Shown here one piece after another: positions 400 through 24,013 of a stretch of 26,442 nt of DNA (its first letter is position 1; each line of letters opens with the position of its first letter). This DNA is from a virus. The notes under the pieces were generated by a model. That model saw nothing but the letters and a program-made list of their open reading frames with translations. It did not search any database and was not told the origin of the DNA. The stretch lies in the IMG/VR virus record IMGVR_UViG_3300046373_000012, positions 1 through 26,442 of that record; one strand, given 5' to 3'. The translations under genes and the position numbers were made by a program.

Positions 400-828
400 A
401 TGACAATCATAGACCCGACAACACCTATCGGTAAGCTGCGACTTCGCTGTGGCGACTTCGGAGACTTTCCAATCCTACCTGACTCTGTGTACACATCGGC
501 GCTGGCTGACTGTAATCAAAGCTTGCCCCGCGCATCGCGCCTATGCGCGCAATACATTCTAGGGACGCTTACAGCTAAGACTCACAGAAAGCTGTCGTCC
601 TTGGAGACATGGAGTGGCGAGTACTTCGACCACTACGTACAATTCATTAAGCTGACGATCCTGAATCCAAACTTGATGTCGTTCTCTCCAGTCCCATACA
701 CACATGCAAATGAGATTGAGAACCCATTGCCGAAGTTCATCCGTGAGTGGAATCTTAACTACTCTGGAATCACGCAAGCAGAACAGATGACGATGGATGC
801 TATCGGCGTAACTCAAGGTCAACTATAA
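400..828 (+). CDS. Head-tail connector / adaptor protein
   Basis: A 142-residue protein starting MTIIDPTTPIGKLRLRCGD. The N-terminal pattern, T-P-I-G-K-L-R-L-R then a D-x-x-D-x-P-I-L-P-D loop, resembles the small helical adaptor proteins that sit under the portal and join head to tail. The middle part (about residues 30-85) is Leu/Ala-rich and probably helical, as expected for an adaptor ring. AAAGGA lies 6 bases before the ATG. The stop overlaps the next start as TAATG, which suggests translational coupling to the next head-closure gene. The family assignment comes from recalled similarity and gene order and was not searched. Confidence 0.6.
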   Translation: MTIIDPTTPIGKLRLRCGDFGDFPILPDSVYTSALADCNQSLPRASRLCAQYILGTLTAKTHRKLSSLETWSGEYFDHYVQFIKLTILNPNLMSFSPVPYTHANEIENPLPKFIREWNLNYSGITQAEQMTMDAIGVTQGQL

Positions 829-1214
829 TGTTTGATGACTTCGCATACGCCGTTCAGCAGTTCATGGACGAGAGTGGCTTCACAGCGTCCCTCACACAGC
901 CCACAGGCTCATACAACGCTGCGACTGGCAGTATGACTACAGTAGACACTGTAACGCCTGTAAGAGCCATCCTGATGGATCGTACGCTGCAACATAACGG
1001 CTTGGGCGAGAAGGGTAGTACGGAGATATTGGCGGGAGACAAGCAGATGTTTGTGCAACCTCCTCAAACGCCCACTGGCCCCACTATTCTCAACATCGAC
1101 CCGACCAAAGATACTGTGCTTGTTGGCTCTGTTAGGTACAAGATTGTAACACTGAAAGAAATAAACCCAACGAGTTCATACCCTATGTTGTATGAGCTTT
1201 ATGTCAGACGATAA
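828..1214 (+). CDS. Head closure / head-tail joining protein
   Basis: A 128-residue protein, predicted mostly beta-stranded. Its layout (short N-terminal helix, then P-V-R-A-I-L-M, later K-Q-M-F-V and a C-terminal V-R-Y-K-I-V-T-L-K) fits the small beta-barrel head-closure proteins of siphophages that seal the portal after packaging. It starts in a TAATG overlap with the connector gene. AAGG about 10 bases upstream is the likely ribosome site. Position directly after the adaptor supports the role; the primary sequence alone is not decisive. Confidence 0.55.
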   Translation: MFDDFAYAVQQFMDESGFTASLTQPTGSYNAATGSMTTVDTVTPVRAILMDRTLQHNGLGEKGSTEILAGDKQMFVQPPQTPTGPTILNIDPTKDTVLVGSVRYKIVTLKEINPTSSYPMLYELYVRR

Positions 1215-1227
1215 TTAAGGAACCTAA

Positions 1228-1611
1228 ATGGCAGCTAAATTCGCACACTCAGACGTACTCGATGGTGGCCTGCTGGCTATCAAAAACGGCGCTACCAAGA
1301 TGCTTCTGGTCTCGGCTTACACCTTTGGCGATTCGTATGCAACCGTCAATACCAACACCGTCGCCTCAGTAACGATGGCAGCAACGGACTTCACCATATC
1401 TAGTTCTGGCAACAATCGTGTCCTCACAACAGCGACTAAGTCAGCAACCGCTTCTGGCTCCATCGGAGGCACACCCGACTTACAATTCGTCTTTACTGAT
1501 GGAGCCTCCCGTGTGCTGTGGGTCACTGATGAGACATCAAATCAGGCAATCGCTTCGGGCAATACGGTGAACTTTCCAGCTTTGACTTACACCAGCAATC
1601 AGCCAACCTGA
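1228..1611 (+). CDS. Hypothetical structural protein, head/neck region
   Basis: A 127-residue protein beginning MAAKFAHSDVLDGGLLAIKN. The first 35 residues are well ordered with the pattern L-D-G-G-L-L-A-I-K-N-G-A, followed by a Thr/Ser/Ala-rich, probably beta-sheet, C-terminal half. AAGGA sits 6 bases before the ATG. The gene lies between the head-closure gene and a large virion esterase, so it is most likely a virion component (minor capsid, decoration or neck protein). I do not recognise a named family. The +1 frame stays open across its stop into a 24-codon mini-ORF (see findings). Confidence 0.6.
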   Translation: MAAKFAHSDVLDGGLLAIKNGATKMLLVSAYTFGDSYATVNTNTVASVTMAATDFTISSSGNNRVLTTATKSATASGSIGGTPDLQFVFTDGASRVLWVTDETSNQAIASGNTVNFPALTYTSNQPT

Positions 1612-1702
1612 TCTTGAAATGACTGACGCCACAGGCAAAGTCAGGACAGTGGTCAAGGGTACGTACATTTATACACAAGATATAACAAAATAAGGAGGCC
1701 GA

Positions 1703-3625
1703 ATGAGTGTCTTATATACGAGTAACTTTGACGCAGCCACCCTTGGCAGTATTGCACCAGGTTGGGTAAATGTTGCAGGTACTTGGCAGGTAACGACCAC
1801 AGGCGCTGTCAGTGGTTCGCAGGCATTCAAATCGTCAGGTAATGCTGACGGTGACGTTGCCATGTACACGGGAGTTACTGCTTCTGCAGATATGCAGGTA
1901 GACTTCTCGCAAGTCATCGTGACATCTGCAGGCAAGTTCCCACTAATAGGTTCGATCCTGAGGGGCGATGCATCAGGCCAGAACCACTACCTGATGTTGA
2001 TGGGTAACTCCACCACCACAGGTTGTACGGTGGCGTTGTACACGAAGAACGGCGGCACTTACACACTGATCACCTCCACACCTATCACGTATGGTGTAAC
2101 TCTCTCTGCAGGCCAAGTCTATAAGGTAAGGGCCAAGATAGTCGGCTCGTCACTGTCGTTCTATATCGGCATTGGCACTCTGCCGGGAACGCCTTCGGCA
2201 TCATTCACTAACACATCGATCACTGCAGCAGGCTACTCCGGTCTATACAATGCGCTGGATACTACGACAGCGATCATGGCAGTGGATGACTACACGCTTG
2301 ACGACACATCCGTACCAGTCGCAAACAATCCGCTGACATCAGGTACAGCTAACGTCCTGTGGTCACCTTATAACTGGAATGTAGGTACTTCGGCAGCTAA
2401 GACTATCAACCCCGGCGCGTACTTCAAGACGATATTCACTGGCACAGCTTGCTCGTTGCAATTCGATATGACTGGTGTTCTTACACCGCTGCCGCAGATC
2501 AGCTACAGGATAGATGGAACTGGTGCATGGATCACCGCACCAATTGCAGCCTCTGTGGTATTGACGCTGCCATCAGGGTCGAACTCGACAAGCGACTACG
2601 CAACGAAAGGTGGTCACCTGTTGGAAGTTGTTGTCAAGTCTATGACAGAGACGCAGGCTCGGTGGTCGACGCAGGCAACTGCAGTCAACCTGACTGGGAT
2701 TATCCTAGACACGTCAGCAACGCTGACCAAGCCCACAGCGCTGCCATTGAACGCTCTCTTCTACGGAGATAGCATCACTGAAGGTGTCCGTACACTGAAT
2801 GGCACGGCAACGAATGATACTGACCGCAACGATGCAGCACAGGGTTGGGCATATCACGCAGCACGTATCTTGGGCGCTGAAGTAGGTATCGTAGGCTTCG
2901 GTGCTTCAGGCTTCACTGTTACTGGCTCGGGTGGTGTTCCTGTCCTGTCCACTAGCTATAATCTGCTCTACTCCGGTGTATCTCGTTCGTTCTCTGTGGC
3001 ACCTGACTTTATCGTGCTGATGGAAGGTACGAATGACGGTGCAACAGACGTGACCACAGCCGCTACAACGGTACTGAACAGTCTGCTTGCAGCTACACCC
3101 GCCAGCACTAAGATCGTTGTCCTACGGCCCTTCAATGGAACAAGTCAGGCTGCTCGTCTGCAAGCGGCTATAGCTGCATGTTCGACACCTAGTCGTTGCA
3201 CATACGTGGACACTGCTAGTTGGTTCAATACAACAAACAGCTACGACGCACTGCATCCGTATGGTATTGAGAATCTGACCCACATTGCACCATTGGCAGC
3301 AAATGCCATTAGGCCGCTTCTGCAAATAACAAGGGGCGCGCGTACGGCAAGAACAGTTACACTGACGCTCAAGGATCGTACAGGAACACCCCGCGCCAAC
3401 TTAACAGGGCTTAAATGGGCATTCTTCGACCAAACTACCGCAGCCGCGTTGATTGTGAATGCTGACAGCGGAGCTTCTGCTACGACCGATGCTAACGGTA
3501 CACTCACACTGACAGTACAGACTACGCTTCCATCGGGCGGCACAGGCTGGCTGGTATTGTCGGACAGTGCAGGTAGTTCTGCAGTGGCGTCCAACGCATT
3601 CAGCGCCCCTGTGACTGTTGCGTAA
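1703..3625 (+). CDS. Multidomain SGNH-fold esterase (virion-associated)
   Basis: A 640-residue protein, probably a carbohydrate deacetylase or esterase carried on the particle. Residues 1-205 look like a LamG/concanavalin-type beta sandwich. Residues 206-345 form a second beta-rich module. Residues 346-545 form an SGNH hydrolase with all blocks visible: G-D-S-I-T-E-G (nucleophile Ser357), G-F-G-A-S-G (oxyanion Gly, about 400), E-G-T-N-D-G (Asn444), and D-A-L-H-P (Asp515, His518). Residues 546-640 resemble an Ig-like C-terminal domain. There is no signal peptide. A strong AAGGAGG lies 4 bases before the ATG. The usual place for such enzymes is a tail spike, as in G7C-type phages; here the gene lies between head-completion and tail-completion genes. 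Enzyme class is confident; substrate and virion location are inference. Confidence 0.85.
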   Translation: MSVLYTSNFDAATLGSIAPGWVNVAGTWQVTTTGAVSGSQAFKSSGNADGDVAMYTGVTASADMQVDFSQVIVTSAGKFPLIGSILRGDASGQNHYLMLMGNSTTTGCTVALYTKNGGTYTLITSTPITYGVTLSAGQVYKVRAKIVGSSLSFYIGIGTLPGTPSASFTNTSITAAGYSGLYNALDTTTAIMAVDDYTLDDTSVPVANNPLTSGTANVLWSPYNWNVGTSAAKTINPGAYFKTIFTGTACSLQFDMTGVLTPLPQISYRIDGTGAWITAPIAASVVLTLPSGSNSTSDYATKGGHLLEVVVKSMTETQARWSTQATAVNLTGIILDTSATLTKPTALPLNALFYGDSITEGVRTLNGTATNDTDRNDAAQGWAYHAARILGAEVGIVGFGASGFTVTGSGGVPVLSTSYNLLYSGVSRSFSVAPDFIVLMEGTNDGATDVTTAATTVLNSLLAATPASTKIVVLRPFNGTSQAARLQAAIAACSTPSRCTYVDTASWFNTTNSYDALHPYGIENLTHIAPLAANAIRPLLQITRGARTARTVTLTLKDRTGTPRANLTGLKWAFFDQTTAAALIVNADSGASATTDANGTLTLTVQTTLPSGGTGWLVLSDSAGSSAVASNAFSAPVTVA

Positions 3626-3634
3626 TGGCTTGCA

Positions 3635-3663
3635 TTGACAAAAATCAAGTAGTGGTGTATAAT
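3635..3663 (+). promoter_or_regulatory. Consensus sigma-70 promoter inside the late block
   Basis: TTGACA at 3635-3640 and TATAAT at 3658-3663 match the bacterial consensus at all 12 positions, with the optimal 17-bp spacer. The predicted transcription start is near 3670, about 17 bases upstream of the tail completion gene (ATG 3687). A short AT-rich inverted repeat (TAATT, ACGG, AATTA; 3660-3673) overlaps the -10 box and likely start site. It would give host RNA polymerase independent access to the tail genes. Confidence 0.8.
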
Positions 3664-3686: not shown

Positions 3687-4145
3687 ATGGCTAGTTTAGG
3701 ATTTGCTGCGTCTATAAGGGTCAACAGTGATGCTGTTCTCTTAAAGGTTAACAAGGTTGCCTACAGGATAGCGTGGGAACTATTCACCTCCATCGTACAC
3801 CTTACACCGTCCCCTACTCAACCGGGCGCATTCGCTAAGGGTCTGCTGGCAAACCAGTGGTATCCCTCTGTTGGTACGCCTTCTGGTGAAGTAGGAACCG
3901 ACACCAGCGACACAGGTTCTGCCAGTCTGTCAAGAATAAACGAGTTCGTTGCTAACGGCAAGGAGTTCCTTGGCAAGGATGGTGTGTTAATCCTGTCCAA
4001 CAACCTCCCCTACTCCGGTAGGGCAGAGTCTGTTGGCTGGCTTGAGGCCCCTTGGTCTGGAAAGGTACGCCCCTATCGCATGGTTGCTCGCAGCCTGATA
4101 GCTGTTGCAGCCACGAACAGACTTATACCAATAAGGATTCCATGA
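3687..4145 (+). CDS. Tail completion / neck protein (HK97 gp10-like)
   Basis: A 152-residue protein with a helical N-terminal half. The pattern around residues 28-60 (A-W-E-L-F, then S-P-x-x-P-G-A-F-A-K-G-L-L, then N-Q-W-Y-P) and the later Y-S-G-R-A-E-S-V-G-W match the general form of siphophage neck or tail-completion proteins, where a peptide released from Ser/Pro-rich loops packs against the head-closure ring. It is preceded by AAAGAGG and by the consensus promoter at 3635-3663. Its stop overlaps the next start (ATGA), linking it to the tail terminator, which is the usual neighbour. Assignment rests on motif recall plus gene order. Confidence 0.65.
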   Translation: MASLGFAASIRVNSDAVLLKVNKVAYRIAWELFTSIVHLTPSPTQPGAFAKGLLANQWYPSVGTPSGEVGTDTSDTGSASLSRINEFVANGKEFLGKDGVLILSNNLPYSGRAESVGWLEAPWSGKVRPYRMVARSLIAVAATNRLIPIRIP

Positions 4146-4546
4146 GCAATTTAGCAATAAGGGCGGAACTTGAGCAGCGGCTTGCTGCTTGGGCTGCTGC
4201 TCAAGTTCCTCCTGTACCTGTGACGTTTGAAAGCACACCATTCACTAAACCTGCTGACGGCGTGTTCCTTGAATGCTTCCTGATGCCAGCGCTGACTCTG
4301 AATCGCGGAGTCTCTGGTGACCATGCCACCTACTACGGCTTGTTTCAAGTCAATGTGTGGGCAAGGTCTGGCAGGGGTATGGGGCAGGCAGAACGTCTTT
4401 CCAGCAACATTATATCCCTGTTTCCAGTGGTTCCTAAGACTGGGAACGTGTCCATCGAGCAGTTGCCTAGAGCAGAACCGTCTATGGCTGATCCTTCTGG
4501 GTGGATAGTAATACCCCACGTAATTAACTATCGCTACGAGACGTAG
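4142..4546 (+). CDS. Tail terminator protein
   Basis: A 134-residue protein starting MSNLAIRAELEQRLAAW. The N-terminal helix followed by a P-P-V-P-V-T-F-E-S strand, a G-V-F-L-E-C-F-L strand and a G-L-F-Q-V-N-V-W strand matches the fold pattern of gpU-type tail terminators, which cap the tail tube and stop its polymerisation. A longer frame opens at 4052, but the ATG at 4142 has AAGGA 4 bases upstream and forms the ATGA overlap with the previous stop, so I chose it. Position between tail completion and tail tube genes is typical. Confidence 0.7.
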   Translation: MSNLAIRAELEQRLAAWAAAQVPPVPVTFESTPFTKPADGVFLECFLMPALTLNRGVSGDHATYYGLFQVNVWARSGRGMGQAERLSSNIISLFPVVPKTGNVSIEQLPRAEPSMADPSGWIVIPHVINYRYET

Positions 4547-4561: not shown

Positions 4562-4909
4562 ATGGCAACAATCGTTCAAAACAATGCTTCGAATGACTTT
4601 CAAGCAGTGCCTCTGACTCGCACTGCAATGACAGCATCTGACACTCTGTCCTACGTACAGGGTAGTGGTCAAGTTCTGTTTATGTACAACACCACAGCTT
4701 CGGCAATCCCTGTGACTATCGCAGGTAGCTTGGCTGGCAATCTGCAACCTGCTGGTTACGGCGGTGTCATTTCTCTGGCTGGTGGCAAGGTTGTAACTGT
4801 CCCTGCAAGCGGCTCTACTTACCTTCAACTGGATGACATTGCTGCATATCTTCCAGGTACTGTAACTCTGACAGGCGGCACTGGTATCACTGCTCACCTG
4901 TACATCTAA
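4562..4909 (+). CDS. Hypothetical tail-region structural protein
   Basis: A 115-residue, Gly/Thr/Ala/Val-rich protein, almost certainly all-beta, beginning MATIVQNNASNDFQAVPLTR. Strands such as G-Q-V-L-F-M-Y-N-T and I-P-V-T-I-A-G-S-L-A-G-N resemble small beta-sandwich decoration or minor virion proteins. AAGGA lies 7 bases before the ATG. It sits between the tail terminator and the tail tube gene, so a virion role is likely. I do not recognise a named family. Confidence 0.6.
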   Translation: MATIVQNNASNDFQAVPLTRTAMTASDTLSYVQGSGQVLFMYNTTASAIPVTIAGSLAGNLQPAGYGGVISLAGGKVVTVPASGSTYLQLDDIAAYLPGTVTLTGGTGITAHLYI

Positions 4910-4931: not shown

Positions 4932-5369
4932 ATGTCCGTTCAAACCTCCGCAGGTTCCACCGTAGCTATCGCCACCGGCCTGCCAACAACATATGACGCA
5001 ACAGGCTTTGCTGCTCTCACATACACCCCTGTCGGTGAAGTTACCGACATCGGCCAATACGGCACAACCTACGTTGCCACCAAGTACACATCGCTGGCTA
5101 GTCGTCAGACCAAGAAGTTTAAAGGTTCCTTCGACAACGGCTCGATGGTTCTGAAGATGGGTCGCTTCCAAACAGAGCCGGGTCAAATGGCACTGAAAGC
5201 AGCTTTGCTGTCGGACGCTTCGTTCTCGTTCAAAGTCACGTATCAAGACGGCACCAAGAACTACTTCACCGGCAAAGTTATGGATTACAAACAGACCATC
5301 GGCTCTGTTGACCAGATCACTGCTGCTGAAACAACCGTAGAAATCGATGGCGGACTCGTTGAAGTTTAA
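4932..5369 (+). CDS. Major tail tube protein
   Basis: A 145-residue protein, the probable building block of the tail tube. The features are typical of the gpV-like tube family: an N-terminal G-S-T-V-A-I-A-T-G strand, a loop with T-P-V-G-E-V-T-D-I-G, a basic T-K-K-F-K-G-S stretch, and a C-terminal M-D-Y-K-Q-T-I-G ending in an acidic E-I-D-G-G. Length is right for a single-domain tube protein without an added Ig domain. AAAAGGA lies 8 bases upstream of the ATG. A strong hairpin follows at 5388-5407, and the chaperone pair and tape measure come next, which is the standard order. Confidence 0.85.
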   Translation: MSVQTSAGSTVAIATGLPTTYDATGFAALTYTPVGEVTDIGQYGTTYVATKYTSLASRQTKKFKGSFDNGSMVLKMGRFQTEPGQMALKAALLSDASFSFKVTYQDGTKNYFTGKVMDYKQTIGSVDQITAAETTVEIDGGLVEV

Positions 5370-6332: not shown

Positions 6333-9300
6333 ATGGCAGATACATCAACGCTTCAAATTGAAGTTATCACAACTGGCTTAAGTGGTAACGGCGGTGCGCC
6401 AGCCCTCCTCAACAGGTTAGGCGAGGCAGCGGCTAGTGCCGAACCTAAGGTCAAAGCACTTACAGATACCATAGAGAAGCTGATGAATAGTCAGCGGACA
6501 GGCACAGCCATAGCTGAAGCATACGCTAAGTCAATGCAAGCGGCTGTCTCAGGTATTGCTGGTGGCACTGCATCTGCTGACACGCTGGCTAGTGCAACTA
6601 CGAAGCTGTCTCAAGCCATGCTCATTCTGTCGGAAGCCTTCACCAAGGTCAATACAAGTTCTAAGCAATCATCGCAAGCAATCGTAGCAAACACAGCAGC
6701 AATGCAGGATGCTCATGCAATGGCTCGTGGGTTGTCTGGAAGTCTCGGTGCCCTGTGGGTTACCTACGGCAACATGGTTCCGCTCGCTGCTGGTCTGGCA
6801 ATCGGGTCAGCATTCAAGGGCATCATCACAACTGGCATGGATGTTGAGCATGCCCTTGAAGGTATCCGTGTCCGTGGCCAAGAATCAACCTCCGCTATCA
6901 CTGAGATGCGGGGCGTAATCATGGACTTGGGCAAGGGAGTATATGGCCCAAAAGAAGTCGCTGGCGCTCTTGATACCCTGATCCTTGCTGGTCTTAATGC
7001 AAAGCAGGCTATGGTGGCCGTTAAGGACGCACTCAACCTAGCCACTGTCGGCGGGACTACGATTGAGAAGGCTGCTGAAGTGCTGGTGCAAGTAGGTACA
7101 TCCTTGGGCTACGCCGCTGAAGGTTATGGCCGTATTGCTGATGTCATCTCCGCTACAGCAGCGGCGTCTATGTCGTCTGTCGAAAGCGTATCTGAATCAT
7201 TCAAATCCGGCTCTGCAGTGGGTAAGGCTTACGGCCTGACGCTTACGGACATCGGAGCATCCTTTGCGATGCTGTCTAACTTAGGCATCAAGGGTACGGC
7301 TGCAGGTACAGCAGTAAAGAACTTCTTTTCATACCTTACTAAAGACTCTCCCAAGGTCAAGGATGCACTTGCTCAAATCGGGCTTAGTATATCCGATCTT
7401 CAGGATAAAGCAGGGAACATGAAATCTATCGGAGAGGTGTTTGGCACCTTATCCACACACCTGAATACTTTGACTGAGAGCAGCCAAAAGTTGGCAATGG
7501 CTAACATGACGAATCAGCAGGGCTTCCGCTTCATGGTGGAAGGCATCAGCATGGTGCGTAAAGCTGGCGAAGACGGTGGAAATGCCTTGGATGAACTGGT
7601 AGCAAAGATTGACAAGAGCTACGGCTACGCCGCTATCGGCGCTGCAGCTATGGCACTGACAGTTAAGTCACAGTTTGAGTCGGTTAAGAATACACTTCAG
7701 ACTCAATTCGTTGCAGCATTCCAAGACATCCAGCCTCAACTGTCTCTAATCGCTACACAGCTTAAGGCTGCGTTCAACTCCCCTGAGTTCTCCCACGGCA
7801 TACAAGAAATAGCTAAAGATTTGACGGGGCTTGGCCTTGCTCTGGCTAACAATATTGAACTGGTAAAGAACATATTGGAAGCGTTCCTAGCATGGAAGGC
7901 AATCGCTTTCATCGCTGGCGTCATATCGGGAATAGCGACAGCGATAAAAGAACTTACTGTCGCGTTGGAGGCTGGAAAGATTGCAGCTATAGCTTTTCAA
8001 GGTGCGCTTGGGCCTCTGACAATAGCTCTTGGTATCGCCGCCGCAGCATGGGTCTGGTACAAGAGTAAGAAGGACGAAGCGAACGCTGTACCTGCAGGCA
8101 TTAACTACATGAACAACTTCACTGACGAACTGAACAAAGAGGCAGAGCGCCTTGAGAAGCAGACCGCACTCATGAAGACAGGTGTGGATGCTGCCAAGGC
8201 TGCGAAGCAGACAATGGCTGAACAGCAGATGGGTGAGATTGTTAATAAAGGAAACGCAGAGGTTGTTTCTAAAGTACGTGAACTGACAACAGCCAAAGAA
8301 CAACTCAGTGCTGCGGACTTGAGAGCGTATGACCGTGCTGTTGCCCTGAACGCCACAGAGATAAACGGGTATGCAAACGTCAACAACGTCTTAAAGATTC
8401 GTAAAGAGACACAAGCCGTGATGGATCAGGTTGCAACGGCTCAAGACAAAGTTACACTGGCTGTTGCTCGTAACACCCAAGCCAGTAAAGAGAACGCTGA
8501 AGTAGCAGACGCGCAAGCTAAGAAGTCGCGGTCAAATCCCGATGCAGGATCAGGCGTATTCGTCCCTAAGTCCAAGGCTACCAAGGAATCCGGCCTGTCC
8601 GCAATCGAAAGCGAAATCATTGCCCTCAATGTACAAGCTGCTATGTACAAGTCGAAGCAAGCATCTGTGCAAGCAGTCGCTGACACAGAAGTTAAAGCAA
8701 TCGGTGACGTGAACCGTGCAAGGGTTGAAGAAGAAATCCTGCAAGGCAAGTTTGCAAAGAACGGTCAAGAACGCTTTGTCGAACAACTCCGCCAAGCTGC
8801 TCTCAGGGCAGACCAAGCTAAGTTTGAGTTGGACAAGGCTCAGGCTATGGCTGACTTCCAGTCGAATATGGCTGTAGGTTACAGAAAGACGCAATCAGCG
8901 CTGACAGAAGCTCAGACAGGCCATGCCAATCTAACAGGAGCATACACCAAAGAAGCTGAAGAATTCCTCAAGCTGTGGGGTATCGATAAGAATGGTGAGT
9001 ACGGCAAAAAACTCCTTGAGCAAGCAGCCGCACGCGGTGTCTTGAATGAGCAGTTGGAACGTACCATGCGTATCAACAAGCTGGCAGAGAGCATGAAGAC
9101 TCAGGCTTCTTCAGCGATGGAGAAGGGTGATGCACTAGTTGAAGATGGTAAGGGCGGTAAGCAGACCAACATGCAGCTTGCAGAACTCCAGATCATCAAA
9201 GAGAAACTTAACCAGACAACAGCAGCCGGGGCGATAGCTGAACTTAGGTCTGCTGCTGCGTCGAAGGACTTGGGCGACTCTTATGAGCGTCTGGCTGGAA

Positions 9301-12300
9301 TCTACAATACACTAGCGAAGGCCAAGAACAAAGCCATTGCTGCTGATTCGGCTGGAGTGATTGGGCTGGAGGGCGCTAAGGTCGCTGCTGCCTATGCTAC
9401 GATGAACAAGAACATCGAGTTCAATCACCGCACTGAAGAAGATGCTATAAACTCAGCGCGTGACTCCGCAACTGGTGCTACAGCGGAGCAAGAGTCCTAC
9501 TACGCAAAAGTTAATGCGCTGTACCTACAAACGAAGGCGCTGCTTGCACAGGGCTTGCCTGTCGATCTGAGGATTGCAGGGCTTGAGGACTTAGCTACAG
9601 TATTTGACAAGATGTCCTCTTCAGCTTCTAAATTGGGTGGCTATCTCGGGGGCTTGTCCAAGCCATTAAGTGACATGGGCAAGGCACTCACCAACCTAGC
9701 TAAGGCAGACAAGGAACGTGCTGCTGGTGTAAAGGGTTCGATGGCTGACCAGATTGGAGCCTATGGTGACATGGCTGGCGCTGCTGCTGGATTCTTTAAG
9801 ACTGGCACGACTGGATACAACACCCTGATGGGCGTTGCCAAGGTTGCTCACACGGCTCAGATGGCGATGCAAGCAGCGTCAATGGCTCAGGGTGCAATCA
9901 ATGCGATCATTACTGCTGCTGCTCAGACTGGCTGGCCCGGTATGATCCTCATGGCGGGGGCGATGGCTGCTCTTGGCTACGCTGTTAGTGGTGGATTTGA
10001 CTCATCATCTGGCTCTGCTGCAAGTTCGGCAGACCGTCAAGCTAGTCAAGGTACAGGTACAGTGTTTGGCGATGCATCTGCCAAATCTGATTCTGTCTCC
10101 AAGTCGCTTGAATACCTTGGTAAGAACTCCGACATCTCCCTTGAGTACTCTTCAAAGATGCTTGGTGCAATGAACCTAGTAGCCGCTGGCATCTCTGGCT
10201 TGACTAACATACTGCTACGTACGGCTGGCATCACTACTGGCAACAACTTCGGTATTGATACGGGCGTAATTGGCAAATCCCTTGGTGGCATATGGGGCAA
10301 GACCACTCAGTCTATTACGGACACTGGTATTAATGTGAATGGTAGCCTGAATGATCTGAAGGCTGGTCAGGGTGTAAATCAGTACGTCGACACTCAGACA
10401 GACAAGTCCAGTTGGTTCGGTCTGTCACACAGCATCAGCAACAATGAGCAGTCTGCTGCAGTTAGTGCAGATATTGCCAAACAGTTCAGCATGATCTTCA
10501 CACACATCAACGATACGATTGTTACTGCCGGTAAGATGTTTGGTAAGAGTGGCGACGAGGTGCAGAGTGCCTTGAACACACTGAGTATCAATCTTGGTCA
10601 CGTTAGCTTGAAAGACCTCAAGGGTGCCGATCTACAAGCCGCACTCGACGCTGTCATCTCAAGCGCATCTGATCAATTAGCTTCGTCTGTCATATCCGGC
10701 CTTGAACCTTTCCAGAAAGTTGGCGAAGGTTATCTGGAAACTCTGGTTCGTGTGTCTTCTGGCATTGAACAGTCCGGCGCTATCCTTGATAGGTTTGGTA
10801 TGACAGCAATCCAGTTCAGCCAGATCATCAACAAGCAAGGCGATGTAGCTGCTGAGATTGTTCGTCAGACTATTACGGACAACGAGCGATACACAGTGGT
10901 GCTGAGGAACTGGGACGGTTGGCTTAGGACTGCCAAGGGCAACATGAATGGCATTGGTGAAATCATCAATGACTTCCAAGGCACTGCAACAGAGATGGCT
11001 ACGTTGTATCAGAAGCTGATCGACATGCGCTCGCAGATGAAGTCTATGGGCCTTGGTGACAATCTAAACAGGGACTTGATCGCTGGAGCCGGAAGTGAAA
11101 CAAACCTCTCCTCGGGCCTCTCAGACTACCTGAAGGGCATGTTCTCTGCAACTGAGCAACAGGCAATCAAGGTTCAATCTCTGACTGATAAGTTTGCTGC
11201 ATTGGGCATGGCTCTGCCTACATCTGCTGCTGCATTCCGCTCGCTGGTTGAGAGTCTCACTGGCTCAGGTCAGAATAACTTGGCTGGCAAGGTGTTGGTG
11301 TTGTCCGGTGCATTTACTGACATGACCACATCGGCAGATAGCCTTGCATCAGCTACAACGGCAGCAGCAGACGCTGCAGCAGCCGCAGCCAAGCAGGCAC
11401 TGGCTCAGGCACTGACAGATGCTCACACGGCTCTGACGGCTTCCTACACAGCGGAGCAGACAGCACTGACAGCTACGAAGACAAAGTTTGAAGCCTTCGC
11501 AGCATCTCTGAAGACGTTCCGTGACGGCCTACTGACTGGCAACCTGTCTCCTCTGACCAACGCTGGTAAGTACTCTGCAGCACAGGCTGCGTATGAGTCT
11601 ACAGCAGCGGCAGCTAAGACTGGCGACCAGACTGCAATCAGTAACTACCAGACGGTGGCTAGTGCCTTCCTGACAGCATCACAAGCCTATAACGCATCTG
11701 GCGCTCAATACACGGAAGACTTTAACCGTGTGGCTACAGAGAGCGCAATGATGGCTGACTGGGCATCAAAGCAAGTCGATGTGGCTACAGCTAGTCTGGA
11801 TGCTCTCAACAAGCAGGTAGAAGGTTTAGGGGCTATTAAAGCTGCTGTTCAAAGTGTTGATGTTTCCATCATGCAGTTGTATGGCGCGATGGTAAACAGC
11901 AAGGACACTACGAACTACAACGCAATGGCATCCAGCATGATGCAGCGGTATGCAGGCCAGTCTGATCCAGCCAGCATCTCGATGTATTCTGGAATGATGG
12001 CTCAAGGTGCATCGTATCAAGATGTGCAGAATGCCATTACGAAAGCCTACCCGATTGACGGCTCTCACGCTAACGGCTTGGGCTTCGTTCCTTTCGACGG
12101 CTACCGTGCTGAGTTGCATAAAGGTGAGGCAGTGCTGACAGCTTCTGAGAACAAGCAGTATCAGATGGGTGTTGGCGGCAGCAAGGGCAACAACAGTGAT
12201 GTTGTCGCAGAACTGAAAGCTATGCGCGATGAAGTCAGGCAACTGAAAGAAGAGCAGCGTCAACAGACTGCAAGCCTGATTGGTGCTAACTACGATGCTC

Positions 12301-12452: not shown

Positions 12453-14168
12453 ATGGATAGTATATTTGCCTCGCAAGGTTCGTCTGGCACAGCTACATAT
12501 GAATCACAAACAACGGTAACAACAGGTGGTACGAACAACTTGACAGGTGTAGCCACTTCTCAGGCGAACAATACATCTACAGCGGCAGTAACGATACCTG
12601 GCAGTACAATAAACAATCTGAGCGGAGCAACAGCTACTCAGCAGAATTACAGTGCAACAAGCGCAATACAGATATACTTCCCCAATGCCCCTGAGCCGGT
12701 TATCCCTCAGGCATTCGGAGACTGGCTCAAGTCACAACGAGCGATACGCTGCGTATTGATTGAAGTCGTAGCACAGGTCGGTGGAGTTGAAACCACTCGA
12801 TATCTGTCAAACAAATCTTATGTGACTGGCCCAAGCGACTCTCCAGCAAACATCAACTACATTCCTGCTGTGTCAGGTGGTGTGCAGTTCACTGAAGCGC
12901 TTGCGCTAGATGGAACTCCATCCATGTCATACGGTGATATCGAGTTGTATAACATCAGCGGAGAGAAAGACACTTGGTTCAATGACATATGGCGTAACAG
13001 GAGTATCAAGATTTACATGGGCGATGTCACATGGACACGCAGCCAGTTTGTCATGATCTTCAACGGTGTGGTGGCGGACATTAGTACTAAGGCTCGTGAC
13101 AGGATTAACCTGATTCTCACAGACAAGATACAGCGATTGAATGGCCCGATCACGGAACATCTTCTTGGCGGTACAAGCCAGAACAAGGATAAAGAAATCC
13201 CCCTGTGCTTTGGCGAGTGCTTCAACGTAGAGCCGCTTCTGACTGACCCCACTGTACATGAGTATCAAGTGCATGATGGTGCTATCGAACGTGTCATCGA
13301 AGTGCGGGATAATGGCGTTCCAGTTAGCTACACAGAGTATTTAAGCACTGGCAAGTTCAGGCTGAATCAAAGCCCAGTTGGGCAGATCACATGTAGTGTG
13401 CAGGGAGATAAGTACCTCTCGTATATCACAGACATCCAATCGATCATCGAAAGGATTGTTACTGGGTTCGGTACAGCCACTCAGCGTTTCAGCACAGCTG
13501 ACATTGACAGCACATTGTCAGCGTCATTTAAAGCTGCTCACGCTGCGCCAGTTGGCATCTACATCAACAGCCGCACTAACGTCATCGACGTGTGCAACCA
13601 GCTTGCGACAAGCGTTGGAGCTAGGGTGGCTATGTCTAGGTCAGGGCTGTTGTATTTGGTACAGATTTCTGTGCCACGAACTGATAGCGGCACCACTGTT
13701 ACTTCAGCCGATATGGTGGAGAGGTCACTGAGCATCACGCAGCTTCCTCCTGTGGTGGCTAGTGTGCAGGTAGGCTATGCAAAGAACTGGTACTTGGAGA
13801 CGAACATCCAGACCGGCATCCCTTCTGATCATGTGGCGATGTACGCTCAAGAGTGGTTGACTTCAACATCATCCAACTCTGCAGTAGCTACGCAATACAA
13901 CTTGTTCAGCGTGCCTGCGATGGAAGAGACTCTGTTGCTGCGTGGCTCAGACGCTACGGTTGAATGCGCAAGACGGTTGGCGCTATATAGCACGCAACGC
14001 AAGGTGGTCGGCTACTCTGGATTGCCACAGCTTCTGCTGGCTACTCTTGGCAGTACGCAGACAGTGAAGACTAATAGATTCGGATTAACTAATGGACAGG
14101 CAGGGCAAATCATTTCGTTGAAGACGGATTGGTTGGCACCAAGTGTCGATGTGGAGGTATTAATTTAA
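12453..14168 (+). CDS. Tail-tip / baseplate hub protein
   Basis: A 571-residue protein following the tape measure gene, where siphophages encode the distal tail and hub. Residues 1-70 are a low-complexity Ser/Thr/Asn/Ala stretch of unusual composition. From about residue 85 an ordered part begins (F-G-D-W-L-K-S-Q-R-A-I-R), with later I-K-I-Y-M-G-D-V-T-W, I-F-N-G-V-V-A-D-I, L-T-D-K-I-Q-R-L-N-G and I-P-L-C-F-G-E-C-F-N-V-E-P, recalling hub proteins with gp27-like beta-barrel modules. It probably closes the tube and holds the fibre encoded next. A GGTAGG-type site precedes the ATG. The stop overlaps the next start (TAATG). Separate gpM/gpL/gpI counterparts are absent, so this protein may combine roles. 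Confidence 0.7.
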   Translation: MDSIFASQGSSGTATYESQTTVTTGGTNNLTGVATSQANNTSTAAVTIPGSTINNLSGATATQQNYSATSAIQIYFPNAPEPVIPQAFGDWLKSQRAIRCVLIEVVAQVGGVETTRYLSNKSYVTGPSDSPANINYIPAVSGGVQFTEALALDGTPSMSYGDIELYNISGEKDTWFNDIWRNRSIKIYMGDVTWTRSQFVMIFNGVVADISTKARDRINLILTDKIQRLNGPITEHLLGGTSQNKDKEIPLCFGECFNVEPLLTDPTVHEYQVHDGAIERVIEVRDNGVPVSYTEYLSTGKFRLNQSPVGQITCSVQGDKYLSYITDIQSIIERIVTGFGTATQRFSTADIDSTLSASFKAAHAAPVGIYINSRTNVIDVCNQLATSVGARVAMSRSGLLYLVQISVPRTDSGTTVTSADMVERSLSITQLPPVVASVQVGYAKNWYLETNIQTGIPSDHVAMYAQEWLTSTSSNSAVATQYNLFSVPAMEETLLLRGSDATVECARRLALYSTQRKVVGYSGLPQLLLATLGSTQTVKTNRFGLTNGQAGQIISLKTDWLAPSVDVEVLI

Positions 14169-17146
14169 TGGCAATAATCGTAAATGACAGGGACGTACTG
14201 CTTCAGTCAGTCAGTCCTCGTATCCAACAAGTAGGTCTAGCCCCTAACGTAGCAATCGACCCTAGCCAAGTTCCCGGACTAAGTGCTGCGTTCGATGCAA
14301 CTAAGGAAGTGGCCCTGAGCAGCACATCTCAGGTCTTTGTCGTTCCAAAGGTTGGAGCAATCCAGCCCGCAGTTATCACAATCTCTGCAACACTGCGTTC
14401 GATCACTGGCACGCCTACGTTCTCTGTCATCGACGGGACTGTGTCATTTACGAATAACGGAACTTCCATCACTGTCAGTGCGCTGAATATGTCCAGCCCT
14501 ACAGCAACCATCCAGGTATCTGTGCTGTTCAATTCTGTCCTGTACACCGATAAGATAACTCTTGGTAAGATCGCAGAAGGCTCAGATGCCGTTGTAGGGC
14601 TTTTATCCAATGAAGCCTGTACTGTGGCAGCAGACCCTACTGGAAACGTCACTGGAGCCGTCCTAGCAGCTTCTGGAGGCACTTACAACATCTTCGACGG
14701 CATTATTAACATGACTGGGCAGGCGAGTGTCGTCTACTCCGTGCTGAATACGTCAGGTTGTACTATGAGTATCGCAGCCACTGGCGTCTACACTCTTAAC
14801 TCTGTGACGGCTGCTACGGCTTCGGCAACCCTAAGGGCTGTCTACACGCGTGGCACAGCAAGTATTACAGTCGACAAGGTGTACTCGGTAGCCAAGGCTG
14901 TCGCAGGCATCATCGGTTCTAATGCCAAGCTGCTCTACCTGACAGCAAGTTCACAGATATTCCAGATACCAAAGGCAGGTAGCGTTACGCCTGCCCAGAT
15001 TACATTAACTGCCACAGCGCAGAACTTGGATCAATCGGCAACGTACAATTGGGTTACAACTCCTGCCATGACATTAGGTGGGTCTGGTAACGTCAGGACA
15101 TTGAACTACTCTGACATGACTGCAGATGCTGTTAGGGTGGATGCTACTCGTGACGGAATGACTGATACGATTACACTAGTCAAGGTGCGGGAAGGTAATG
15201 ACTCGATCACTGGATACTTAACCAACGAAGCGGCACTGGTTCCAGCGGACAGCAGCGGCACTGTTGCAGGCTCAAGCTACGCAGCAGCCGGTGGAACATT
15301 TGAAGTCTATCAGGGGCTTACGCACTTGACAGGCATCGGCCCAACGTACTCCGTAATAAGCGAGACTGGCATTGACGTAAGTATCAATGCGACGACTGGC
15401 GTCTACACTGTCAATTCAATGAGTACAGACGCTGGTGTTGCCACCCTTCGGGCGAGCCTCACTGTCGGCGCATCCACAATCAATATCGACAAGGTGTACT
15501 CCCTTGCTAAGTCTAAGACTGGCGCTACTGGTGCAGGCGGGTCTGGTACTCGTGGAACTGTAAACATTGCAGGAGCTATCTCTGGTTCCTCGTGGACAGA
15601 CGCTGCAGCCAACTCCGTGTTGTCTGGCGCAGGTTATGGCGTTCCTCAGAGCCGTGACATCGTCACCCTGTACAACACATCTGTCAGCTACTCTGAATCG
15701 AAGTTCTACAGCGGCTCTGCGTGGATTCCACTCGACGCATACATTAACGGTAACTTGCTAGTAGCCAAGACTATTGCCTCCGCATCGATTAACACGGGAG
15801 CTATCCAGACGCAGCACTTGTCTTTCGCATCCGGTGGTAAGAATATACTTAACAACTCTGCGCCTATGCCTAACGCAACTACGAGTTGGACAAGCGCCGG
15901 CTACTCCAACAATGGAGCTAACCCACAACCCGCTGCTGCTTACTCAGCGTTTGGGCCTATCGGTGCTTGGGCTATCGGCACTCACGACCCTGCCAGCCCT
16001 GCAAGTGGTAGCGTATTCGGAGTTACTAACGATAACAACGGAGCAAAGTATCCTGTGAAAGCAGGTCAGAGGTATGAGTTCAGCGCATACCTAGATATAG
16101 CACGCGCCGCGTCTGCCCATGTGCGAATCTACTGGTTCAATAGCTCAGGGTCTGCTGTAGGAGAGTCTGCAGGCTCCTTGGTGACTGCCACATCCGGCAA
16201 AGCTGCACTGGCGACATTCCCGCGATCCACGGGGTTTGACGTAGCTCCAGCAACGGCAGCATCGTGCGTCTTCGGTGTTCGACTTACCGCCAATGGCTCC
16301 ACAGACGCTTATGTATTCGTGTCGATGGCCTACATGGGTGAGGCTACTTCTGCGCAGACTGATTTCTCTGCGTGGAGCGAGGGCGGCTTGACAACTATCG
16401 GCCCAACGTCTATTTCCACCCCAAACTTGTCTGCCATTAGCGGAGACATGGGTTACCTGACAGTGGGGCACATGCACGGGCCAGTTATATCGGGAGGAGC
16501 TTACACAGATGTGTTTGCGTACCCTGCCGCTGGCGCTGGCAACGGCTTCCACCTAAGCGGTAACGGACTTCTGATGGGTAACGCAAACACGCCGGGTGCG
16601 AGTTACTTCAGGATTAATGTGGACGGCTCCATAGGGTCTAGGCAGTTTAATATTGACCCCACAGGTAACGCGACATTCGGGGGTAACCTAAGTGCTGCTG
16701 GAGGCTCCTTCAGCGGAACGCTTTCGGCTGCATCAGCCCAAGTCGACACACTGAACATCAACGGAAACGCCGTAACTGTACCTGAGGCTGTTAAACACGG
16801 CCTGATTTCAGGGACTGGCGCGGGTATTGACGTACTGTATGTCGGCATAACTATGAGCCAACCTGGTAGCGTTCTAGTATCATACTCTTGCAGCCAAGGT
16901 TACTCTTCTGGCCTCAAGAACTACCAGTTCATTATTCAGTACCTGCCATCAGGTGGTGCGGTTGTTGATGTGTATAACTCAGGCTCGGCTGGCGTAGCCT
17001 CGGCGTACCAGACAATGCCTTGCATAACAGCTATTGTAAAAAATATCCCTACAGGAGTTGCCACATTTCGAGTCGTATGGTACGGGCAAGACGGGACTGT
17101 ATCAATCGACCAAGGAACCCTTTCAGTGATTGGAGCAAAAAGATGA
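14168..17146 (+). CDS. Central tail fibre / receptor-interacting protein
   Basis: A 992-residue fibre protein. The frame opens earlier (14129), but ATG 14168 gives the TAATG overlap and has GGAGG 10 bases upstream, so I chose it. Residues 48-247 and 257-451 are two diverged copies of one beta-rich module, each ending I-x-x-D-K-V-Y-S-x-A-K. A short Gly-rich hinge (G-A-T-G-A-G-G-S-G) follows. Residues about 556-738 look like a galactose-binding/CBM sandwich (G-Q-R-Y-E-F-S-A-Y-L). Residues about 800-870 carry the F-x-I-D-P-T-G-N-A-T-F-G-G-N-L-S pattern common near the C-terminus of gpJ-like fibres. The last 120 residues form a probable beta tip. Host-recognition role is inference from architecture and position. 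Confidence 0.8.
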   Translation: MAIIVNDRDVLLQSVSPRIQQVGLAPNVAIDPSQVPGLSAAFDATKEVALSSTSQVFVVPKVGAIQPAVITISATLRSITGTPTFSVIDGTVSFTNNGTSITVSALNMSSPTATIQVSVLFNSVLYTDKITLGKIAEGSDAVVGLLSNEACTVAADPTGNVTGAVLAASGGTYNIFDGIINMTGQASVVYSVLNTSGCTMSIAATGVYTLNSVTAATASATLRAVYTRGTASITVDKVYSVAKAVAGIIGSNAKLLYLTASSQIFQIPKAGSVTPAQITLTATAQNLDQSATYNWVTTPAMTLGGSGNVRTLNYSDMTADAVRVDATRDGMTDTITLVKVREGNDSITGYLTNEAALVPADSSGTVAGSSYAAAGGTFEVYQGLTHLTGIGPTYSVISETGIDVSINATTGVYTVNSMSTDAGVATLRASLTVGASTINIDKVYSLAKSKTGATGAGGSGTRGTVNIAGAISGSSWTDAAANSVLSGAGYGVPQSRDIVTLYNTSVSYSESKFYSGSAWIPLDAYINGNLLVAKTIASASINTGAIQTQHLSFASGGKNILNNSAPMPNATTSWTSAGYSNNGANPQPAAAYSAFGPIGAWAIGTHDPASPASGSVFGVTNDNNGAKYPVKAGQRYEFSAYLDIARAASAHVRIYWFNSSGSAVGESAGSLVTATSGKAALATFPRSTGFDVAPATAASCVFGVRLTANGSTDAYVFVSMAYMGEATSAQTDFSAWSEGGLTTIGPTSISTPNLSAISGDMGYLTVGHMHGPVISGGAYTDVFAYPAAGAGNGFHLSGNGLLMGNANTPGASYFRINVDGSIGSRQFNIDPTGNATFGGNLSAAGGSFSGTLSAASAQVDTLNINGNAVTVPEAVKHGLISGTGAGIDVLYVGITMSQPGSVLVSYSCSQGYSSGLKNYQFIIQYLPSGGAVVDVYNSGSAGVASAYQTMPCITAIVKNIPTGVATFRVVWYGQDGTVSIDQGTLSVIGAKR

Positions 17147-18758: not shown

Positions 18759-19181
18759 ATGACATTTAAAATAGCGTTATACAAAGGGCATGGTAACCTG
18801 TTCAACAAGTTGATCCGCTTTTGGGATCAGGGCAAGTATAGCCATTGTGAATTGGTGTTCTCGGACGGCAAGTCTGCGTCCGCTACATTCCGCGATGGTC
18901 GACAAGTCAGAGAGAAAGAGATTGTATTCGATGATGCAAACTGGGACTTCATTAACCTGCCAGCCGAACTTGAGCCAGCAGCTAATGAGTTTCTTCAGCA
19001 GACTCGTGGCATGCCCTACGATCTGGTCGGGCAGAGTCGGTTCATGTTTGCACCTTGGCATGGGGTTAAGAAAAGTTACTGGTGTAGTGAGTGGTGTGCA
19101 GCAGCGTTGGGTATGTCGGAGCCTTGGAGGTACGGCCCTAACAACTTAGCAATCGTCCTCTGGTATAAATACAATGGCTGA
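18759..19181 (+). CDS. Permuted NlpC/P60-like cysteine peptidase
   Basis: A 140-residue protein, probably a cell-wall peptidase. The order of catalytic elements is that of circularly permuted NlpC/P60 (YaeF/YiiX-type) enzymes: the His lies N-terminal in Y-S-H-C-E-L-V (His29, with Glu31 nearby) and the Cys lies near the C-terminus in Y-W-C-S-E-W-C (Cys109 likely nucleophile). P-Y-D-L-V-G (about 86-91) matches the conserved P-Y-D-x-x-G of this fold. There is no signal peptide. AGAGGAAG precedes the ATG. It lies between tail-tip genes and the lysis cassette, so it could act in the tail during DNA entry (like gpK of lambda) or in lysis. The fold is fairly sure; which stage it serves is open. Confidence 0.75.
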   Translation: MTFKIALYKGHGNLFNKLIRFWDQGKYSHCELVFSDGKSASATFRDGRQVREKEIVFDDANWDFINLPAELEPAANEFLQQTRGMPYDLVGQSRFMFAPWHGVKKSYWCSEWCAAALGMSEPWRYGPNNLAIVLWYKYNG

Positions 19182-19542: not shown

Positions 19543-19847
19543 ACTCTGGACTGGTAACGTGGGGATGGGTTGTCGGGGTGTCAGTGTGGGGTGGGTTGGT
19601 GTCTTACTTTGAGAAGAAAGAGAAATTCTCCTTCGTTAGCTTCGTCGGGCACCTCACCTCAGCATCCTTCGCCGGACTGATGACGTACTTGCTGTGCCAG
19701 TACGGAGGCGTGCCGGGGCCACTAACAGGCGTCTGCTGCGGTGTTGCTGCGTACATGGGCACGCCAGCGCTGGTCGCCTTGGCAATGAAGCTAAAAGTGG
19801 TTAGGCAGTTCTTTGAAGCAGCGCCGGATGATGTGAAGGATAAGTAA
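19518..19847 (+). CDS. LydA-like holin
   Basis: A 109-residue membrane protein starting MDSREPFLNSGLVTWGWVVG at ATG 19518, which has AAAGGGG about 9 bases upstream; the longer frame from 19401 is a shadow of the previous gene. The N-terminal segment through V-S-Y-F, the K-K-E-K linker, and the S-F-A-G-L-M-T-Y-L-L and G-V-A-A-Y-M-G-T-P segments match the LydA holin family. Three hydrophobic segments are visible (about residues 11-28, 39-62, 67-92). The C-terminal tail is charged. It ends in a TAATG overlap with the endolysin, so the two are co-expressed. Inner-membrane pore formation at lysis is the known family role. Confidence 0.75.
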   Translation: MDSREPFLNSGLVTWGWVVGVSVWGGLVSYFEKKEKFSFVSFVGHLTSASFAGLMTYLLCQYGGVPGPLTGVCCGVAAYMGTPALVALAMKLKVVRQFFEAAPDDVKDK

Positions 19848-20290
19848 TGGTAGACGTAAATGCAGCATTGGCGTTAGCGGTGCCCTTAATCAAGAATGCT
19901 GAAGGGTGCCGACTCAAGGCGTACCTCTGTCCTGCCGGAGTCCCGACAATCGGGTACGGTGAGACAGACGGTGTGAAGCTAGGGGATGTGTGGACGCAGG
20001 AGAGGGCCGACAAGGCTGTCAAAGACAGGGCACTAGGCTTCCTACAAGGAGTTCTCAAAAGTTGCCCACAACTTGATCTGGAGCCTCCTAGCAGGCTTGC
20101 TGCATGTACATCTCTGGCATACAACATCGGACTAGCAAACTTTGCCAAGAGTTCTGTGTGTAGGCTGACTACAGCCAAACAGTACCAGCAGGCAGCAGAT
20201 GCTTTCAGGATGTGGAACATGGGCGGTGGGAAGATTCTTCCGGGCCTAGTAAGCAGGCGGGAATTGGAACGCGGTTTATATATTAATTAA
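19847..20290 (+). CDS. Endolysin, GH24 (T4-type) lysozyme
   Basis: A 147-residue muramidase that cuts the glycan chain of peptidoglycan at lysis. The catalytic region is E-G-C-R-L-K-A-Y-L-C-P-A-G-V-P-T-I-G-Y-G: Glu19 is the acid, Cys28 stands where T4 lysozyme has Asp20, and Thr34 matches T4 Thr26, giving the E-8-C-5-T variant of the triad. A-Y-N-I-G and R-R-x-x-E-R near the end are also typical. There is only a short N-terminal hydrophobic patch, too weak for a clear SAR anchor, so export through the adjacent holin is expected. The start overlaps the holin stop. Confidence 0.92.
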   Translation: MVDVNAALALAVPLIKNAEGCRLKAYLCPAGVPTIGYGETDGVKLGDVWTQERADKAVKDRALGFLQGVLKSCPQLDLEPPSRLAACTSLAYNIGLANFAKSSVCRLTTAKQYQQAADAFRMWNMGGGKILPGLVSRRELERGLYIN

Positions 20291-20300: not shown

Positions 20301-20636
20301 ATGCAAGGAATAGTGATGTTGCTGAACCTGTTGCGAAAAGGCAACGAGGTAGCCGATGTCAGCGCATGGAAGTCTGGTCAGATTTCTGTGAACTCAGTTG
20401 GTGCGCTGTTGCTGGCTGTTGCAGCAGTGGTGAAACACTTTTTCGGATTAGATTTGGGGATGGATGATGCGACGGCTCTTACAATTGGTGGTGGCGTTAT
20501 TGCTGTCGTTAATGTTGTACTTACCGCTATCACAAGCAAGCGAGCGGGAATTCTGCCAGCCAGCACAGCACCAGAACGACCCAGTGGCGTTAGCAATACA
20601 GCGGTCGAACAGATTGTGCCTGCCAAGGCACCATAG
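20301..20636 (+). CDS. Two-TM membrane protein of the lysis cassette
   Basis: A 111-residue protein with hydrophobic segments near residues 31-48 and 60-77, separated by an acidic turn (L-G-M-D-D-A-T-A), and a Pro/Ala/Ser-rich hydrophilic tail. N-terminal E-V-A-D-V-S-A-W-K-S-G-Q resembles small membrane proteins often encoded beside phage endolysins and sometimes called holins. AAAGGA lies 7 bases before the ATG. It is the last gene of the rightward block. A role as second holin or lysis accessory is inferred from topology and location only. Confidence 0.65.
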   Translation: MQGIVMLLNLLRKGNEVADVSAWKSGQISVNSVGALLLAVAAVVKHFFGLDLGMDDATALTIGGGVIAVVNVVLTAITSKRAGILPASTAPERPSGVSNTAVEQIVPAKAP

Positions 20637-20702
20637 TCCGTGCAGCCTAAGCCTAACACCGATATTGCATCTGGAACATATTCCGGATGAGTTAAATGAC
20701 AA

Positions 20703-20743
20703 AAGCCTTGCCCTTGACAAGATTGTCGAAGGGTACAAGGCTT
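20703..20743 (-). terminator. Probable terminator for leftward transcripts
   Basis: A 17-pair stem-loop with two bulges: AAGCCTTG pairs with CAAGGCTT, then CCCTT with AAGGG, then GACA with TGTC. Read on the minus strand, the stem ends in CAAGGCTT followed by TTGTCATTT, a U-rich tract suited to termination of the leftward small-gene operon. Read rightward, no U-tract follows. Confidence 0.6.
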
Positions 20744-20784
20744 CAGTATATTGCAAGTTTTAAGTTTTCCCTTGGTAGGGAATT

Positions 20785-22485: not shown

Positions 22486-22734
22486 TTACAAAATCTCATT
22501 AGTGAGAGTATTTGGATCGGTGTGTACGCCATCGATGTAGACTTGCGGTACTGACTTGTGCCCTTCACTCAGAAGGAACGCCCTGTCTGGAGGATTCAAG
22601 TCTACACGAACTTCGATGAATTTAACAGCCTTGAGAGTTAATTCTCGCTTCACCTTGGTACATTGTGGGCAATTTGCTTTCGAATACACTAGTACAGTTC
22701 TTTCACCAACTGTGGGCTGATCAGTAAGTTCCAT
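22486..22734 (-). CDS. Glutaredoxin / NrdH-like redoxin
   Basis: An 82-residue thioredoxin-fold protein that would pass electrons to ribonucleotide reductase. The active site C-P-Q-C is at residues 22-25 after the strand V-L-V-Y-S-K, and the cis-Pro loop is S-V-P-Q-V-Y-I-D-G, both standard for glutaredoxins and NrdH. The start ATG overlaps the nrdB stop as TAATG, with GGAG 7 bases upstream inside nrdB, so it is coupled to the enzyme it probably serves. The end is slightly short for a full glutaredoxin (P-N-T-L-T-N-E-I-L in place of a longer final helix), which is common in phage versions. Confidence 0.9.
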   Translation of the reverse strand: MELTDQPTVGERTVLVYSKANCPQCTKVKRELTLKAVKFIEVRVDLNPPDRAFLLSEGHKSVPQVYIDGVHTDPNTLTNEIL

Positions 22735-23834: not shown

Positions 23835-23843
23835 TGCTCTCCT

Positions 23844-23966: not shown

Positions 23967-23991
23967 ATTGTTTTCATTGTTGGCCCTGACT

Positions 23992-24005
23992 GGGGCCGAA
24001 GCCCC
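23992..24005 (-). other. UUCG-tetraloop RNA hairpin between nrdA and nrdB
   Basis: On the minus strand, GGGGC-TTCG-GCCCC gives a 5-bp G-C stem closed by a C(UUCG)G tetraloop, one of the most stable small RNA hairpins. No U-tract follows, so it is unlikely to terminate. It may protect the 3' side of nrdA mRNA or block early decay of the nrdB part. Confidence 0.5.
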
Positions 24006-24013
24006 TTTGGTTA

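Follow-up and report, generated by a model that had tools for sequence, protein, structure and literature searches.

The stretch of viral DNA analysed here (the window, 26,442 bases) is probably a fragment, because the longest contigs of related phages are 82-94 kb, and all features described are on its plus strand unless stated otherwise. The gene for the head closure protein Hc1 (828..1214; PHROG 161, 4.5e-11) is followed by a small gene of 127 aa (1228..1611), by a short remnant of coding sequence (1610..1693), and by an open reading frame of 640 aa (1703..3625) that begins with ATG and has the Shine-Dalgarno sequence AAGGAGG (1692..1698) four bases upstream. A consensus sigma-70 promoter, TTGACA-17-TATAAT (3635..3663), lies immediately 5' of the tail genes, which encode the tail completion or Neck1 protein (3687..4145; PHROG 169, 8e-8, with an alignment of 15 relatives), the tail terminator (4142..4546; PHROG 179, 1e-24, and Pfam PF13554, 7.5e-16), a small beta protein ("4562", 4562..4909), and the major tail (tube) protein (4932..5369; PHROG 158, 3.6e-18). 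An earlier sequence-only reading had described the 640-aa gene as an esterase with its own strong ribosome site, situated between head completion and tail completion genes, and the ribosome site and both flanking assignments agree with that description.

Elsewhere in the window, a large fibre-like protein (14129-17146) with repeats resembling tail fibre families is probably the host specificity protein of the tail tip. The protein at 18759-19181 carries the PHROG 1128 label enoyl-CoA hydratase-like, which is doubtful, as the sequence resembles a permuted papain/NlpC-type protein. A lysozyme gene (19847-20290) is followed by a probable holin open reading frame (20301-20763) that is overlapped in another frame by a short open reading frame with a signal-like start, possibly forming a lysis cassette. 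Ribonucleotide reductase genes occupy 22734-26319 on the minus strand, opposite to the structural genes, with a large subunit (24079-26319) about 54% identical to phage NrdA and a probable small subunit (22734-23834). Judging solely from the major tail protein, a Gram-negative host is likely, because its relatives among isolated phages infect Acinetobacter, Rhizobium, Vibrio, Pseudomonas, and Salicola. Scanning genome contigs with the Neck1 alignment gave no match, and a near-identity search with the window among isolated phages also returned none.

The 640-aa protein matches Pfam Lipase_GDSL_2 at 3e-11, and its SGNH blocks are intact, as had been claimed: Ser357 (codon 2771-2773) lies within GDSITEG, Asn444 (3032-3034) within EGTND, and Asp515 (3245-3247) and His518 (3254-3256) within DALHP. 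In an alignment of 39 sequences, the serine and asparagine are present in 39/39 and the histidine in all 36 rows that have a letter at that position, while position 515 is aspartate in 24 and glutamate in 12. A profile built from the 39 sequences over residues 205-640 matches structures of carbohydrate acetylesterases of family CE2, spanning both a beta-sandwich and the SGNH domain in 2wao (7e-37), 2wab, 2waa (6e-30), and 4xvh, and covering a good part of both in 3u37 and 2w9x. An AlphaFold2 model of residues 205-640 made from the same alignment has a pLDDT of 89.5 and a pTM of 0.84. When this region was compared with known folds, all CE2 structures scored Z 30-33.5, with 2waa at Z 33.5 over 308 residues and 2.5 A, whereas the tailspike protein gp63.1 of phage G7C (4qnl) reached only Z 14.6 over 174 residues, far below the CE2 enzymes. 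The structural comparison that had been suggested between these two classes thus places the protein with CE2 and not with gp63.1. Because fold and residues agree, the core at residues ~209-540 is almost certainly a CE2 carbohydrate acetylesterase, as predicted from profile, fold model, and active-site residues. Like CtCE2 (2wao), CjCE2A (2waa), CjCE2B (2w9x), and Est2A (3u37), it has the two-domain fold over its full length and the catalytic Ser, Asn, and His; unlike them, it is borne by a phage and has an extra N-terminal beta region and a C-terminal Ig domain. The tailspike esterases G7C gp63.1 and phage B2 Gp48/Gp49 share the SGNH catalytic fold on a phage protein, but align well over the SGNH part only (Z 14.6-14.8), and they are tail proteins. 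The proposal of a sugar-deacetylating esterase therefore holds to the extent that a protein of predicted carbohydrate acetylesterase class, with all catalytic residues, is encoded in the head-tail joining block.

The domain architecture had been read as two N-terminal beta modules, the catalytic domain, and a C-terminal Ig-like domain. The second of the N-terminal modules (residues ~209-345, 2327..2737), which aligns with 2wao and 2waa, is not a separate module but the beta-sandwich integral to CE2 enzymes, and it leads directly into the SGNH catalytic domain (residues ~346-540, 2738..3322), delimited by profile, model, and alignment. The first (residues 1-200, 1703..2302) is beta-rich, though in a poor model, matches no family, and is conserved in the homologues L144, L145, and L146. 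An early full-length model built with five sequences had a pLDDT of 50 and was discarded, so that the N-terminus could not be judged from it. A PDB search with this region returned antibody chains at weak E-values, and a ConA/LamG lectin identity was rejected since no profile link was found to the LamG-type ends of proteins in L143, L154, L155, and L094. The C-terminal Ig-like domain (residues ~547-640, 3341..3622) is upheld by beta strands in the model and by its recurrence at the ends of other proteins encoded between Hc1 and Neck1 in related phages, with 51% identity to the end of L005:9299-10270 and 28% in L005:8025-9299.

About 90 loci were recovered with the major tail protein and Neck1 as queries, and among these we defined a clade as the contigs that share the gene order of the window, HTJ-Hc1-Neck1-terminator-4562-MTP. 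In 12 distinct clade contigs (L007, L008, L009, L011, L024, L025/L092, L028/L088, L029, L090, L091, L093, and L097) the interval between Hc1 and Neck1 is empty, with a gap of 0-71 bases. Two contigs, L012 and L074, carry one small gene there, and nine, namely the window and L005, L006, L087, L094, L095, L099, L101, and L173, carry 2.4-6.9 kb; the interval is only partly visible in L010, L089, and L174. Alignments of occupied and empty relatives break at the Hc1 stop codon. The occupied L095 and the empty L097 are 73% identical up to the Hc1 stop and 80% identical again from about 50 bases before Neck1, and L087 (occupied) and L028 (empty) show the same border pattern at 66-69%. The place between Hc1 and Neck1 is an exchangeable cargo slot with defined borders in these related phages, the 5' border being the Hc1 stop, and this slot is what is new here. 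A horizontal origin of its contents is not supported by base composition, as slot G+C is close to that of the flanks.

What the slot contains differs between relatives and includes proteins with surface-glycan signatures. L099 has a SASA-type acetylesterase and a protein with a rhamnogalacturonan-lyase-type (PcRGLX) domain, L087 and L101 have alpha/beta-hydrolase proteins, L094 has LamG/Ig/FN3 proteins, and L173 has collagen-like and kelch-like proteins; in addition, some slot proteins that have no Pfam match read by eye as beta-helices. Adjacent APS kinase and sulfotransferase genes in L087 (6261-7093) are possible sulfation enzymes among the neck cargo. The Gp77 fibre-tail adaptor domain (PF23148), known from gp77 of podophage GP4 (PDB 8jou), is encoded at the slot end in L005 (2e-17) and L095 (8e-18), with 8jou itself matching the domain of slot relatives at 5.8e-7. 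The same domain is encoded after CE2 homologues in L143 and L144, but sequence searches of the window's intact slot genes found neither it nor a BppU_N domain. The domain of the 4562 protein is fused to the C-terminal ends of slot proteins in L094 (7097-9907) and L099 (8896-9909); the identification of 4562 itself as Gp77 was not supported. Genes of PHROG 1084 type occur in the slots of L101 and L173, and the one in L101 gives a lead to BppU_N at a Pfam E-value of 0.066, below the cut-off. A 130-aa slot gene of a relative matches PHROG 3758, a virion protein family labelled "head and packaging".

A promoter just after the esterase gene had been pointed out previously. The site at 3635-3663 does match the consensus at 12/12 positions, and the next best of 13 matches in 20 kb reaches 9/12, but it is not the esterase's own, being a conserved element before Neck1. 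The same element, at 11/12 or 12/12, is found directly 5' of Neck1 in 22 of the 24 clade contigs, empty and occupied alike, so the promoter belongs to the tail genes; in the two exceptions Hc1 and Neck1 nearly abut. L173 has the element at 11/12. A count of 22/22 would be circular, as that list was picked by the promoter, and 22/24 is the fair figure. Elsewhere in these loci such sites occur at ~0.008 per interval of that size, which sets the expected number. The promoter is the 3' border of the slot, and we infer that it would let the tail genes be transcribed independently of the cargo. Further 12/12 sites in the structural region of clade members (L028:862, L028:3070, L093:2579, L093:8263, L025:1489, and L090:4517) suggest several host-type promoters in the late genes.

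The first gene of the window's slot, the 127-aa open reading frame at 1228-1611, has no PHROG or NCBIfam match and a weak CBM_X2 match of 0.018 that is below the cut-off. No homology could be detected between it and the 130-aa proteins in the slots of relatives, and neither the PHROG 3758-type slot proteins nor the 4562 family received support as its homologues. In a different frame, 1610-1693 encodes DLEMTDATGKVRTVVKGTYIYTQDITK followed by a stop codon. These 27 codons correspond to the C-terminus of a PHROG 1084-type slot gene, L101:9593-9913, with 15 of 27 residues identical and a score of 87, where 2000 shuffles reached 49 at most. As the sequence has no start of its own and is joined to the small gene at the latter's stop, it appears to be the stump of a former slot gene and a sign of cargo turnover.

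The closest homologues of the esterase, L143-L147, are 51-60% identical overall and 66-74% identical over the CE2 region, and belong to other phages, in which the gene has terminase genes in its vicinity or comes after a tail gene and an integrase; in L143 and L144 the next gene has the Gp77 fibre-adaptor domain. In L145, the gene after the CE2 homologue (9222-11879) has inorganic pyrophosphatase and DarA_N domains. The sequence-only reading had allowed that synteny might expose the protein as a standard fibre in phages whose gene order is merely shuffled. The evidence here is divided: these close homologues do lie elsewhere, two of them before a Gp77-domain gene, but two unrelated HK97-type phages, L154 and L155, have a CE2 esterase gene that follows the capsid gene and precedes the connector genes, as read from sequence. 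The CE2 gene of L154 and L155 is preceded by an 85-aa gene that is also present in L143 and in the L005 slot; this short conserved gene of 85-94 aa precedes glycan-active late genes at L154:6766-7020, L155:7030-7284, L143:5705-5986, and L005:5252-5512. The 255-aa genes that follow CE2 in L154 and L155 were considered as Gp77, without support. With homologues at several gene positions, the esterase is a mobile appendage module, which has reached the head-neck block on more than one occasion.

A precedent for the arrangement exists in lactococcal phages. PHROG 7918, "neck passage structure protein", matches the esterase at 1.4e-26 over residues 227-520, the CE2 module only, and tblastn among isolated phages detected 24 Lactococcus records, all annotated neck passage, together with four from Leuconostoc and two from Streptococcus. 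Among viral proteins compared by fold, the neck passage protein of Lactococcus phage ASCC191 comes first (4e-24), and in ASCC460 the neck passage gene sits between small head-tail genes and the tail genes. Two of seven groups of neck passage structure (NPS) proteins in 936 phages end in a module matching 2waa, while the other groups terminate in a beta-helix or a BppA-type binding module, and the collar of these phages has been proposed to consist of BppU-like rings (Hayes et al. 2019, PMC6669499). Neck passage proteins are also reported to exchange domains (Smug et al. 2023, PMC10684548). The resemblance is close in several respects: the CE2 modules of ASCC191, CB13, and CB14 are homologous to residues 228-519 of the esterase at ~31% identity, the 936 genes precede the tail genes just as the esterase gene lies between Hc1 and Neck1, and CE2, beta-helix, and carbohydrate-binding versions replace one another much as slot cargo does. 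On the other hand, no BppU-type N-terminus or coiled coil was found in the esterase (BppU_N by sequence, the full-length model being poor), it has the extra C-terminal Ig domain, the slot precedes Neck1 and is multi-gene in relatives, and the window phage, with its probable Gram-negative host, is distantly related to 936 phages. A looser likeness, set by description, is to the neck fibres of Anabaena myophage A-1(L), separately encoded fibres held at the neck with a distal carbohydrate-binding module; unlike the esterase, these have no reported enzyme, and their module did not bind the tested host (PMC10966104). Given the PHROG 7918 and ASCC191 matches, the 936 gene order, and the groups of Hayes et al., the arrangement is a variant of something described, in distantly related phages, and the earlier view of it as rarely described must be qualified, since neck passage proteins of 936 phages share the CE2 module and are encoded ahead of the tail genes. 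Taken as a whole, what that reading observed is confirmed and its interpretation partly supported.

We favour the reading, at a probability of roughly two in three, that the esterase is exchangeable cargo in a slot between the head-closure and tail-completion genes and forms a virion appendage at or near the head-tail junction. That it is a virion appendage of some kind is very probable, and its position at the neck, as read from gene order, is fairly probable; the neck passage gene of TP901-1 lies after the receptor-binding gene (PMC9692632), so gene position and virion position can differ. The protein could instead be an ordinary tail fibre or tailspike esterase, located at the tail tip, whose gene was relocated to the head-tail block. 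Tailspikes are the typical place for SGNH esterases (PMC11654681), and the close homologues that lie beyond the neck block, of which two precede a fibre-adaptor gene, point the same way; yet the window has a separate fibre-like gene in the usual place (14129-17146), three unlinked settings (936 phages, the window, and L154/L155) each have a CE2 gene in the head-neck block, and the slot is bordered by Hc1 and Neck1 regardless of cargo, so that we hold this explanation unlikely while granting it some weight. A capsid decoration of the Hoc type, with Ig domains, would be compatible with the Ig-like C-terminus, with the match of a relative's 130-aa slot gene to a "head and packaging" family, and with the CE2 gene following the capsid gene in L154/L155, but it is rather improbable, as no known capsid-decoration family was matched and the nearest annotated relatives are neck passage proteins.

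Whether the module cleaves glycans bears on its role wherever it is held. In the work of Hayes et al., the CE2-like ends of 936 proteins were described as carbohydrate-binding modules (PMC6669499), and the title of the 2w9x structure refers to divergent catalytic and non-catalytic binding functions. Binding without cleavage is nonetheless unlikely for the window protein: Ser, Asn, and His are invariant across the 39 relatives and Asp515 is kept, which points to retained catalysis. Some slot genes of relatives look non-structural, such as the APS kinase and sulfotransferase of L087, and would suit a moron enzyme that is set free at lysis or works within the infected cell. This is very improbable for a large multidomain protein whose Ig-like end is common to other slot proteins, in a slot that in relatives includes fibre parts and Gp77 adaptors.

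If the esterase is indeed neck cargo, its CE2 core would work as part of a virion appendage at the junction of head and tail or close to it, comparable to the neck passage structures with enzyme tips that Lactococcus phages carry, and its terminal beta domains would hold the protein on the virion and place the catalytic core outward. Ser357, His518, and Asp515 would remove O-acetyl groups from host capsule, O-antigen, or exopolysaccharide, and this deacetylation would aid reversible binding of the particle or its passage through the layer, ahead of receptor recognition by the tail tip. Deacetylation of host surface polysaccharide during approach is thus the likely role, as far as the present analysis can indicate, and the conserved promoter before Neck1 would keep the tail genes transcribed whatever cargo lies upstream.

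More broadly, we regard it as somewhat better than an even chance that a siphophage clade, probably infecting Gram-negative bacteria, has a dedicated Hc1-Neck1 slot, bounded by the Hc1 stop and by a conserved sigma-70 promoter maintaining tail gene expression, in which neck appendage modules (CE2, SASA-type and alpha/beta esterases, lyase-like proteins, beta-helices, propellers, and adaptor domains) are swapped, making it a plug-in site for virion glycan-processing equipment. A search of the open-licence literature found no paper on a promoter-bounded slot of this kind, which is weak evidence. The customary picture places the sugar-degrading enzymes of phages at the tip of the tail. If true, an exchangeable slot where head and tail join, backed by a fixed promoter, would account for the gain and loss of neck appendages while tail production goes on undisturbed. 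It would also provide a genomic address at which to look in uncultured phages for new enzymes that act on polysaccharides, and would carry the idea of neck passage structures beyond dairy phages to a broader range of siphophages.
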